DNA of 33,600 nucleotides from Aquabacterium sp. Its GTDB lineage: Bacteria; Pseudomonadota; Gammaproteobacteria; Burkholderiales; Burkholderiaceae_C. Below are positions 3,643 to 10,740 of this stretch, piece by piece. Under the pieces are notes generated by a model that was not told the DNA's origin, searched no databases, and saw only the letters and a program-made list of their open reading frames with translations. Numbering within the stretch: the first letter of the stretch is position 1; every line of letters starts with the position of its first letter. A program made the position numbers and the translations under genes. The stretch is taken from the NCBI RefSeq assembly GCF_004297345.1, contig NZ_SCTN01000362.1, positions 1 through 33,600 of the forward strand. Direction: 5' to 3'.

Positions 3643-6399
<2,757 letters not shown>

Positions 6400-6406
6400 C
6401 GCGTCG

Positions 6407-7837
6407 TCAACTGCCTCGCTGCAAGCGGCGTAAAGCCGCTGGCACGAAGTAATCGCGTCGCATCTGCCCCGGGTGGGCAATGAACAGCGGCCCCCACGAT
6501 GGGTTGGCGTCGTGCAGCCCATTGAGCGCCTTGATCAGGTTGGCCTGCAAGGTGCCCAGGTTCTGCCCGGAGGCCAGGGCTTCCATGACGGCCGCCGACA
6601 CCAGATGCGCCGCGTACAGCTTCTTGCCACCGGGCGTGGGCGGCAGCGGCGTGCCGTCGCGCAAGGGCGCACGCATGGCCTGCACGATGGCCTCATCCGA
6701 ATCGGCCCAGCCCTGGATGTCGCCCAGCGCATGGTTCTCCAGCGCCTTGGCCTTGCCCTTGACCAAAGTCTTGGCGACGATGCGGGCTGACTTGCGCGCC
6801 ACGGCAGCCGTGATGGTCTTGCCAGCCAGCACGACGGTGCCGCAGTCCTTGTCAGTCTCGGCAGCGATCAACTTGGCCCACGCCGTGTGATCGGCAAAGC
6901 TCAGCAGGGCCACGACCTCGGCGGCCAGATAGCCGCGCACGATATCGGCTGGATGCGGATCATCGTCGTAGCCTGTGCTGCCTAGTTTCGCGGGCTGCCC
7001 GTAGGCCTTGCCCAGTCCTCGGAAATAGGCGATCAAACCAATGCCTGCAGCCGGCCCCAGGTTGAGGATACCCATCACGTCCGATGAGGTTTCATCGATG
7101 CGATCGGCCCAATAGTCGGACAGGCCTTGCCCCAGTGGAGCCAGGTTGGTGCGCAGCATCTCGGCCAGCTCGGCCTGCAAACCGTCATCCGCATGCAGGA
7201 TGTCATGGCCCGCGGTTTCATGGCCCAACGCGGCCCAGGCGACCAGACCATGCTCGGCATTCGCCGGTGGCATGTTGACCACCGCCGCCTCCACGCCGAA
7301 TGACGATGCGGCATCCACCGGCCAGGTATAGGGGCCGGCATCCGGGTTGCCCCACTTGGCCAGAGGCGGGATCACACCCAGGTCGGGCTGCTTGACACCA
7401 CGCCGATCTTCGGCACTGAGGAAGCCATCGTACAAGTCTGAGATGAACTCCTGAAAGGCCCGTGTCGAGGCCTTGGCGAAGCCCTCGCCATGTTGCAAGA
7501 TGGCCTGCCCCAGGTCCAGCATCAAGCCCGCATCGCTTTCGCGTTTGGGATCACGCTTGAGCACCTGATTGAACTTGGTCTGCCCCAGGTTCGTGATCGT
7601 CTTGATGTAGGGCTCCACGTAGTACTGCTCGTAGACCGGAGGGAACTTGCTCTGCACCGCCTTGAGCCTCTTCAAAAAAGCCGCGTGGTTGAGAGGATCG
7701 ACAGGCCCAGTGCTGTTGGACACCGCAGCCAGGCAGGCGTCATCAATCACGGCCTTCATACCCGCGAGCTTGAGCGGATCGGCGGCTTTGTCTGCCTTCA
7801 CGGTCTTCTTCGAGACGGTCTTCGGTGTGCTTGCCAT
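6407..7837 (-). CDS. Uncharacterised protein with HEXXGH metallopeptidase-like motif
   Basis: 476-aa ORF, convergent with acnA; internal 'ALGHETAGHDILH' (codons at 7205..7222) and 'DRIDETSSDVMG' (7079..7096). No family recognised with confidence. Confidence 0.8.
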   Translation of the reverse strand: MASTPKTVSKKTVKADKAADPLKLAGMKAVIDDACLAAVSNSTGPVDPLNHAAFLKRLKAVQSKFPPVYEQYYVEPYIKTITNLGQTKFNQVLKRDPKRESDAGLMLDLGQAILQHGEGFAKASTRAFQEFISDLYDGFLSAEDRRGVKQPDLGVIPPLAKWGNPDAGPYTWPVDAASSFGVEAAVVNMPPANAEHGLVAWAALGHETAGHDILHADDGLQAELAEMLRTNLAPLGQGLSDYWADRIDETSSDVMGILNLGPAAGIGLIAYFRGLGKAYGQPAKLGSTGYDDDPHPADIVRGYLAAEVVALLSFADHTAWAKLIAAETDKDCGTVVLAGKTITAAVARKSARIVAKTLVKGKAKALENHALGDIQGWADSDEAIVQAMRAPLRDGTPLPPTPGGKKLYAAHLVSAAVMEALASGQNLGTLQANLIKALNGLHDANPSWGPLFIAHPGQMRRDYFVPAALRRLQRGS

Positions 7838-7928
7838 GATGTGTTTCGGATTGACCTGCTGTTGTGGATACGGTCCAGTCTAGGCAGCGCACATGGCAGC
7901 ATCTATCCCTAGATCAATACTTCGCATC

Positions 7929-9089
7929 ATGGAACCCTTCAAGAACCTGCTCAACGCCGATGTCGTGAGCCAAACGGCCCATCACCTGCAGCGGGTGTCA
8001 CCTCGCTTTGATCTGGCCACTTTCAAGAAGCAGGCCCATCAGGGGCTGAATGAGCTGGAGTTCAAAGACCGCGCCGTGCACATCTACAAGGCCTTGCATG
8101 CCAGCCTGCCCGATGACTTCGATGAGGCCACGGGCATCCTGCAAGCCAGCCTCAAACCCGTGGCTGCGCCGCTCGCCCATCATGATCCGGACAAGGAGTT
8201 GGGTGCGCTGAAGACCGACGACAGCGGTGTGGCCGGCTGGGTGCTGTGGTCTTATGGCGAGTACGTGGCCAGACATGGCCAGCAGCACCCGCATCGTGCG
8301 CTGGCTGCGCTGCATGCCTTCACCCAACGCTTCACGGCCGAGTTCGCCATTCGCCCTTTCATCGTGGCGCACCCTGAGCTGGTGTTTGCCACCCTGCATG
8401 AATGGGCGCGGGATCCAAGCGCCCACGTGCGCCGCCTGACCAGTGAAGGCAGCCGCCCTCGCCTGCCTTGGGGCTTGCGTCTGCAGGATCTGGTGCGCGA
8501 TCCCTCCCCGTGTCTGCCGCTCTTGCTGCATTTGCAGGATGACCCCAGCGAGTACGTGCGCCGCAGCGTGGCCAATCACCTCAATGACATCGCCAAGGAC
8601 CACCCGGACATCCTCGTGAAATGGCTGGCACAACATCTGCCGGATGCGCCACCAGCCCGCGTCAAGCTGCTCCGGCATGCATGCCGCTCACTGATCAAGA
8701 GCGGGCACCATGGGGTGATGTCGGCATGGGGTCTGGGTGAGGCGTTCCAGGGTGAGGTCATCTTGTCGCTCAAACCAAAGCGTGTGCATGCAGACGTGAG
8801 CGTGGGCAACAGCCTGACGCTGGAAGTGCACCTGAAGGCCACAGGACGGCAAGCCCAGACGCTGGAGCTGGACTACCGCATTCACCACCTCAAGGCCAAC
8901 GGCGAGACTTCGCCCAAGACTTTCAAAGGCAAGCGCCTGACACTTCAACCGGGCGAAGAACTGGTCTGGCGCAAGGTCCACAGCTTCAAGCCAGTCAGCA
9001 CGCGGCGCTACTACCCCGGCCCGCATGCGGTGGACATCCAGATCAACGGCCAGGTTCAGGCTCACGCCGCCTTCACCCTGTTGGCGTGA
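7929..9089 (+). CDS. DNA alkylation repair protein, AlkC/AlkD-like HEAT-repeat glycosylase family, with C-terminal beta-rich (Ig-like) extension
   Basis: 'HVRRLTSEGSRPRLPWGLRLQDLVRDPSPCLPLLLHLQDDPSEYVRRSVANHLNDIAKDHPD' is characteristic of the family; the last ~110 aa have a beta-rich pattern. ORF opens at 7893; ATG at 7929 (MEPFKNLLNADVV) preferred. Confidence 0.85.
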   Translation: MEPFKNLLNADVVSQTAHHLQRVSPRFDLATFKKQAHQGLNELEFKDRAVHIYKALHASLPDDFDEATGILQASLKPVAAPLAHHDPDKELGALKTDDSGVAGWVLWSYGEYVARHGQQHPHRALAALHAFTQRFTAEFAIRPFIVAHPELVFATLHEWARDPSAHVRRLTSEGSRPRLPWGLRLQDLVRDPSPCLPLLLHLQDDPSEYVRRSVANHLNDIAKDHPDILVKWLAQHLPDAPPARVKLLRHACRSLIKSGHHGVMSAWGLGEAFQGEVILSLKPKRVHADVSVGNSLTLEVHLKATGRQAQTLELDYRIHHLKANGETSPKTFKGKRLTLQPGEELVWRKVHSFKPVSTRRYYPGPHAVDIQINGQVQAHAAFTLLA

Positions 9090-9135
9090 ATTCGCACCAT
9101 GGTATCCACCATTGGATGGCGTCCGTTTTGCTTGC

Positions 9136-9171
9136 AATATTGTTACCCTGACTAACAATATTACGGGTAAC
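9136..9171. promoter_or_regulatory. Two overlapping inverted repeats just upstream of the lipase start
   Basis: AATATTGTTA (9136-9145)/TAACAATATT (9153-9162), perfect 10 bp with a 7-bp spacer; and GTTACCC (9142-9148)/GGGTAAC (9165-9171), perfect 7 bp. Lipase ATG is at 9175. Confidence 0.6.
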
Positions 9172-9174
9172 CAC

Positions 9175-10080
9175 ATGCGCTTCCTTCGCTCCATCCTGAT
9201 TGCCGCCGTGGGGGCCATCAGCGCCCTCTCCAGCCTGAGTTCACAAGCCGCAACCAGCAGTACCACTGCCGCGACCAAGTACCCCATCGTGCTGGTGCAC
9301 GGTTTCATGGGCTTCAAGGACATCCTGGGTGTGGACTACTTCTACCAGGTGCCGGACAAGCTGCGCCAGAACGGCGCCAAGGTCTATGTCGCCGCGCTGT
9401 CAGAAGTGAACTCCAGTTCCGTGCGTGGCGAGCAGTTGCTGCAGCAGATGAAGCAATGGGCTGCGGCAGATGGCGTCAAGAAATTCAACCTGATCGGCCA
9501 CAGCCAGGGTGGCCCGACCAGCCGGTATGTGGCTGGCGTCGCGCCTGAACTGGTCGCCAGCGTGACCACCATGGCCGGCCCTACCGTGATGACTGACGCG
9601 CAAGCCGCCGAGAGCAACATCACCGCCTTCGTGGCCAACTATGCGTCGATGGTGCAGTTCGCCGGCTCCTTTGTGGCCTGGATCTCCGGCCATCAGAACC
9701 TGCCGCAAGACGCCAGCGCCTTGAACCTCAAAGCGGAACTGGATGACTTTGCCAAACGCTTCCCCGCAGGCCTGCCCGCCAGCTATTGCGGCCAAGGCGC
9801 CAACCTCGTCAACGGCATTTACTACTTCTCGGCCACGGGGCAAGGCGTCAAGACCAATGCCTGGGACATCTCGGATGCGGCCATGCAGCAGACCTCAGAG
9901 CCCAGTGATGGCGCCGTGATCGCCTGTGCGGCCCACCTGGGCAAGGTTATCCGCGATGACTACCCCTGGAACCACATCGACGAGATGAACCATGTCTTCG
10001 GCCTCATCGGCAAAGGCGCGCCGGATCCTGTTCAGTTCTACCTGAGCCAGGCCAACCGACTCAAGCTGCTGGGCCGTTGA
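9175..10080 (+). CDS. Secreted triacylglycerol lipase / alpha-beta hydrolase (family I.1-like)
   Basis: Signal peptide 'MRFLRSILIAAVGAISALSSLSSQAA', 'YPIVLVHGFMGF', nucleophile elbow 'GHSQGG', 'SDGAVIACAAHLGKVIRDDYPWNHIDEMNHVFGL' supplying likely Asp and His, and two candidate disulfide Cys. Confidence 0.9.
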   Translation: MRFLRSILIAAVGAISALSSLSSQAATSSTTAATKYPIVLVHGFMGFKDILGVDYFYQVPDKLRQNGAKVYVAALSEVNSSSVRGEQLLQQMKQWAAADGVKKFNLIGHSQGGPTSRYVAGVAPELVASVTTMAGPTVMTDAQAAESNITAFVANYASMVQFAGSFVAWISGHQNLPQDASALNLKAELDDFAKRFPAGLPASYCGQGANLVNGIYYFSATGQGVKTNAWDISDAAMQQTSEPSDGAVIACAAHLGKVIRDDYPWNHIDEMNHVFGLIGKGAPDPVQFYLSQANRLKLLGR

Positions 10081-10110
10081 ACAGCGCCGGCTAACCAGGC
10101 GTCGGCAAGC

Positions 10111-10464
10111 TCAGGCCAGCGAAGCCAGCTTGGCTTCATCAAAGCCCACGCAGATCACCTTGCCGGCCTGCTCTACCACCGGGCGCTTGATGACACTGGC
10201 ATTGGCCAGCATCAGCGCCTTGGCGCTGGCGGCATCCACCACACCAGCCTTGGTCGCGTCATCGAACTTGCGCCAGGTCGTGCCCTGGCGGTTGACCAGC
10301 ACTTCCCAGCCCACGGCCTTGATCCACGCATCCAGGCGATCAGCTGGCACGCCCTGCTTCTTGTAATCGTGGAAGGTATAGGCCACGCCGTGCTCGTCCA
10401 GCCAGGTGCGGGCCTTCTTGACGGTGTTGCAGTTGGGGATGCCGTAGGCGACGACGGTGCTCAT
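10111..10464 (-). CDS. ArsC/Spx (YffB-like) family protein
   Basis: 117 aa; 'YGIPNCNTVKKARTWLDEHGVAYTFHDYKKQGV' and 'VNRQGTTWRKFDD', 'NASVIKRPVVE'. Confidence 0.92.
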   Translation of the reverse strand: MSTVVAYGIPNCNTVKKARTWLDEHGVAYTFHDYKKQGVPADRLDAWIKAVGWEVLVNRQGTTWRKFDDATKAGVVDAASAKALMLANASVIKRPVVEQAGKVICVGFDEAKLASLA

Positions 10465-10520
10465 GTCTTGGTGACTCCAGATTCAACTCAGGCCGAACTG
10501 TGTCACAAGTCGGGTACCCA

Positions 10521-10548
10521 ATAAAAAAGGAGGGCTCAAGGGCCCTCC
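10521..10548 (-). terminator. Rho-independent terminator (minus strand), probably ending the ALDH transcript
   Basis: On the minus strand GGAGGGC-ccttga-GCCCTCC followed by TTTTTTAT. Plus-strand arms 10529-10535 and 10542-10548. Confidence 0.75.
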
Positions 10549-10740
10549 AATCAGTCGAGGAGACTGAAGTCGCGGATAACCAGGAAAACCTGAAAAAAGA
10601 TGCAGCGGGGATCAGCCCGCCACCATCGCCGATTCAAGCCCGTGTGTCACAGGCCTGCACGGGAAGCCCCGACGCCCCTTGTGGAGGCGGCAGAACATCC
10701 CGGCCCGGCACAACAAATCGTTGTAGCTTGAGCGTCGGCT

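Follow-up and report, generated by a model that had tools for sequence, protein, structure and literature searches.

The window analyzed here is a 33,600-nucleotide stretch of Aquabacterium sp. DNA (contig NZ_SCTN01000362.1), and the gene of interest occupies positions 6407..7837 of its minus strand. This open reading frame lies end to end with the gene at 3643..6399 (+), which we take, from its own sequence and without a search, to be aconitase-like, and it is divergent from a gene at 7893..9089 (+) that codes for a HEAT-repeat protein of 398 aa, whose weak match to DNA_alkylation (AlkD-like) falls slightly below the Pfam cutoff. Positions 6400 to 10740, from the aconitase-like gene to a small gene at 10111..10464 (-), form a variable stretch. 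Its HEAT/AlkD-like gene is present in loci L001 and L002 and absent from L003; its alpha/beta-hydrolase gene is present in L001 and absent from L002.

The features of the gene, with residue numbers of the encoded protein and counts among 50 aligned family members, are as follows.

6407..7837, minus strand: predicted zinc metallopeptidase of the gluzincin type, HEXXGH clade; 476 aa, ATG start
7265..7282, minus strand: VVNMPP, residues 186 to 191, hydrophobic, with the near-invariant P190
7205..7222, minus strand: HETAGH, residues 206 to 211, with the predicted zinc ligands H206 and H211, the predicted general base E207, and G210, the extra residue relative to HEXXH
7079..7096, minus strand: DETSSD, residues 248 to 253, with the predicted third zinc ligand E249 and the predicted second-shell D253 (both 50/50)
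7055..7057, minus strand: G261, invariant Gly in the GPAA stretch after the second motif (50/50)
6935..6961, minus strand: DPHPADIVR, residues 293 to 301, containing the HPX4R motif (H295, P296, and R301), 83 residues after HETAGH
6878..6880, minus strand: W320, invariant Trp (50/50)

The dN/dS ratio is approximately 0.15 to 0.18 against close relatives from the genus and 0.25 to 0.34 against more distant ones; by this measure of its sequence, the ORF is a real gene on which purifying selection acts. Searches of Pfam, NCBIfam, PHROGs, PADLOC, and PDB with the single sequence or with alignments gave no credible match to the window protein, in agreement with the original prediction that it belongs to no nameable family.

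Conserved motifs and structure models

In gluzincins, two histidines and a glutamate bind zinc, the glutamate of the HEXXH motif activates water, and an aspartate located four residues past the third ligand hydrogen-bonds a ligand histidine. The original prediction had proposed a new or divergent, M49-like zinc-peptidase family from HETAGH and DETSSD, spaced so that the Glu lies 43 residues beyond the first His. Both motifs were re-located at those positions and at that distance; the third conserved motif, DPHPADIVR, had been overlooked. In residue shuffles of the window protein, HE..GH arises in 0.095% of cases and HE..GH followed by [DE]E..[AS][DE] in 0.01%.

The conservation alignment comprises 36 members with HEXXGH and 14 with HEXXH. 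Its only fully invariant positions in the two clades are H206, E207, H211, E249, D253, G261, R301, and W320, which include all four residues (H, E, H, and the downstream E) whose conservation had been singled out as a check. P190, H295, and P296 are conserved in 49 of the 50 members; D248 is not invariant, being replaced by Gly in L133 and L137. This conservation strongly supports reading the window protein as a putative zinc peptidase of the gluzincin type. The part of the original prediction that concerned a gluzincin-like site in an unnamed family has thus held up, with the predicted ligands and catalytic Glu invariant, while the kinship with M49 found no support.

Two AlphaFold models, derived from 8 and 9 sequences, have pLDDT values of 69 and 72, and the stretch before the zinc helix is unresolved in both (pLDDT of <50). 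VVNMPP probably represents an edge strand preceding the active-site helix, at a place where these models are unreliable. Foldseek searches with both models, which are of poor quality, retrieved no metallopeptidase, M49 included.

Phyletic distribution and the HEXXH sister clade

Relatives with 43 to 79% identity are found on eight genome contigs from Aquabacterium, other Burkholderiales, Anaeromyxobacter, a Gemmataceae MAG, and a Verrucomicrobia MAG. With a copy on Paenibacillus plasmids (about 50% identity), the family spans Burkholderiales, Myxococcota, Planctomycetota, Verrucomicrobiota, and Paenibacillus plasmids, in addition to a homologous sister clade. Its distribution is patchy. The gene is present in 8 of 42 genomes of the window's own genus, the only full-length match in a class-level sample of 274 genomes is the window's own, and 50 of 195 genomes of Myxococcota, the phylum of L006 (Anaeromyxobacter), encode a member of either clade. 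In L004, the last 415 residues are intact and include HEDAGH, DETSSD, and DPHP. The copy in a Paenibacillus polymyxa plasmid (L025, 7944-9356) is interrupted by an in-frame stop; that of P. amylolyticus (L024) is intact. The split copy is preceded, at a distance of 29 bases, by the end of a histidine phosphatase gene, and a shorter one occupies the same place in L024. Second, diverged HEXXGH paralogues are found in L019 (1402-2892) and L110, in genomes that also have the main copy.

The N terminus of the window protein, inspected by eye, is Lys-rich and lacks a signal peptide, as had been noted before. A verrucomicrobial member (L008) begins, again by eye, with an apparently typical signal peptide, so cellular location may vary inside the family. 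No conserved neighbours were found across genera, and assignment of a function from gene neighbours was dropped for that reason. Phage origin was rejected, as phages, viral contigs, and PHROGs contained no matches.

Weaker matches (L020 to L023, L046, and L047; rhizobial and Paraburkholderia plasmids, myxobacteria) contain HEXXH, [S/K]ExxxD, and HP....R. Profiles of the HEXXGH and HEXXH clades align with an hhalign E value of 3.5e-16 (score, 127.5; 272 columns), against scores of ≤20 for 25 column-shuffled profiles, and by this comparison of sequence profiles the two clades are homologous. When the motif columns are left out, the resulting tree places a single change between the two forms, on a branch with an SH-aLRT of 100, and, having several long branches and no outgroup, leaves this change unpolarized.

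Some members of the HEXXH clade are found in rhizobial plasmid islands (L049, 3417-13139, and L050, 2025-11852) that also carry CHAT, S8/S53, C25, patatin, phospholipase D, and large ATP-binding genes and look like peptidase-rich conflict islands. The distant member in L050 is matched over its HEXXH region by the PADLOC profile peptidase_U41 (PDLC03011; E value, 4e-11), which matches neither the window protein nor any other tested member. Since L050 was the sole match, identification of the family with peptidase_U41 was dropped; a search of 143 genomes with this profile gave no match, with the controls giving none either. The occurrence of some members amid CHAT, S8, C25, patatin, and phospholipase D genes, together with the one PADLOC match, hints at a conflict role for the HEXXH clade only. 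In the myxobacterial loci L154 (6529-9705) and L157 (5253-8211), the HEXXH-clade gene adjoins a gene for a protein of 480 to 600 aa without a Pfam match, which is also found in L155 (4431-6245). A 224-aa Glu-rich and Gly-rich protein, also without a Pfam match, is encoded immediately upstream of the HEXXH-clade gene in L046 (532-1203).

Comparison with known metallopeptidase families

The M48 peptidases BepA, HtpX, and LoiP (Pfam ID PF01435) share with this family, in the same order, HEXXH, the third-ligand Glu in ExxxD, and HPX4R. In BepA, zinc is bound by the two His residues of HEXXH, by E201, and by H246 of HPX4R, which constitutes the active-site plug; this motif is reported throughout PF01435, and HEXXH-x(30,140)-HP-x(4)-R has been used as a selector for M48 (PMC7950410). 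The published pattern fits 48 of the 50 family members once one extra G is allowed. The complete arrangement, HEXX(G)H..ExxxD..HPx4R, is likewise present in 48/50 members and in 28/28 M48 proteins, as opposed to 0/19 in M49, 0/16 in M3, and 0/8 in M13 (real sequences fetched with a consensus as bait), and it is missing from 216 neighbouring ORFs and 50000 shuffles.

There are several differences from M48. The clade of the window protein has HEXXGH, with HEXXH found in the sister clade; the spacer between HETAGH and HPX4R measures 83 residues in the window protein and 73 to 90 in the family, compared with 95 to 129 in the M48 sequences used here; and approximately 200 residues of unrelated N-terminal sequence precede the motifs, with no membrane or TPR part recognized. 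Pfam M48 does not match the window protein even at an E value of 5. In hhalign comparisons with M48, the HEXXH-clade core gives an E value of 9e-5 and the whole family 8e-4; an earlier value of 2.5e-4, from an alignment in which all three motifs were in register, was obtained with one wrong ORF still in the M48 set. The HEXXGH clade alone remains at background (E value, 0.12), and known families score alike on the same scale (5.5e-5 for M48 with M13 and 1e-5 for M49 with M3), so the profile likeness does not prove descent from M48. At the level of sequence profiles the link is one of clan, which is why we do not place the family within M48.

The three motifs might instead have been reached in parallel by a gluzincin of non-M48 descent, nearer to M13 (neprilysin/PepO; Pfam ID PF01431), which has DxHxPxxxR. 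The family resembles M13 in the ExxxD second motif and in DPH.....R, found in 36 of 50 family members and 6 of the 8 M13 proteins fetched, with the Arg six residues after the His in both. The position of the proline differs, and HPx4R proper is present in none of the 8 M13 sequences, compared with all 28 of M48. The motif spacings are 60 to 63 and 51 to 63 residues in M13 versus 43 and 46 here, and profile comparisons stay at background (E values of 0.013 to 0.4 for full-length profiles and 0.005 to 0.2 for cores). Membership in M13 was accordingly rejected as a likeness of motifs with a displaced proline, and the broader proposal of non-M48 descent appears unlikely.

It is quite unlikely that the conserved His, Glu, and Asp residues bind a metal for some other reaction, as in an all-helical HD-like protein or a diiron-type hydrolase or oxygenase, or that the protein is catalytically dead. 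The models are nearly all helical, and their weak Foldseek matches include PDE3A and heme-oxygenase-like diiron enzymes, all with a probability of <0.1. An HD-domain or diiron assignment is rejected because E207, adjacent to H206, is invariant (50/50) and D212, the would-be HD aspartate, is not conserved in the HEXXH clade; of the sequence sets compared, moreover, M48 alone shares the three-motif pattern. In homologues that are catalytically dead the catalytic Glu has usually disappeared; here it is kept.

The remote relationship to M49 (dipeptidyl peptidase III; Pfam ID PF03571) suggested by the original prediction, with dipeptides being removed from peptide N termini, is very improbable. The likeness consists of HEXXGH followed, in identical order, by an EExxAD-like second motif with Glu two places into [DE]ExxSD, and one comparison aligned both motifs in register. 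M49 has five conserved regions (PMC5667867). The R3-type zinc motif, HEXX(G)H, is present in all 50 family members, and an R4-like motif is found in 14 of them in the strict form [DE]E..A[DE] and in 34 as [DE]E..[AS][DE], ExxxD itself being common to gluzincins. The other regions are missing: R1 (E[TS]Y.D) is found in 0/50 members versus 13/19 M49 proteins, R2 (NLPN) in 0/50 versus 19/19, and R5 (AH[GM]) in 1/50 versus 18/19. HPX4R, the third motif typical of M48, is found in none of the 19 M49 proteins, which at 538 to 706 aa are also longer than the window protein. Pfam M49 gave no match to it even at an E value of 5, and hhalign E values between the family and M49 (0.005 to 0.1) are no better than those with M3, M48, or M13. 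M49, like the family studied here, includes HEXXH as well as HEXXGH members (PMC5805324), the HEXXH form being present in 17 of the 19 M49 proteins fetched (from L026 to L045), which makes HEXXGH an unsafe marker of M49.

Predicted mechanism and implications

We favor, with a probability of roughly 70%, the reading in which the window gene encodes a zinc-dependent peptidase from a family not previously described, with an M48-like active-site arrangement and an HEXXGH hexapeptide. Zinc would be bound by H206 and H211 of HETAGH and by E249 of DETSSD, with E207 activating the water and D253 steadying a ligand His. H295 and R301 of HPX4R may be located on a loop equivalent to the active-site plug of M48 and BepA. 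By this analogy, H295 might serve as a fourth zinc ligand, capping the site in the manner of a latch until displaced by the substrate, and R301 might line the pocket. G210 would reflect a change of one residue, either from HEXXH to HEXXGH in the clade ancestor or the reverse. More tentatively, and with the odds slightly against it, the family may represent a plug-controlled site of the M48 type that switched once between HEXXH and HEXXGH, independently of M49.

If this is correct, a motif supposed to be the hallmark of M49 would be a repeatable one-residue change among gluzincins, and enzymes combining HEXXGH with an HPX4R plug would represent a previously undescribed form. Annotation pipelines call such proteins hypothetical despite a readable active site. 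The presence of HEXXH and HEXXGH inside one family would provide a natural pair for studying the effect of a one-residue insertion outside M49. The comparison also suggests that the HPX4R plug extends past Pfam M48, to proteins some of whose relatives are found in CHAT/S8/patatin islands on rhizobial plasmids.
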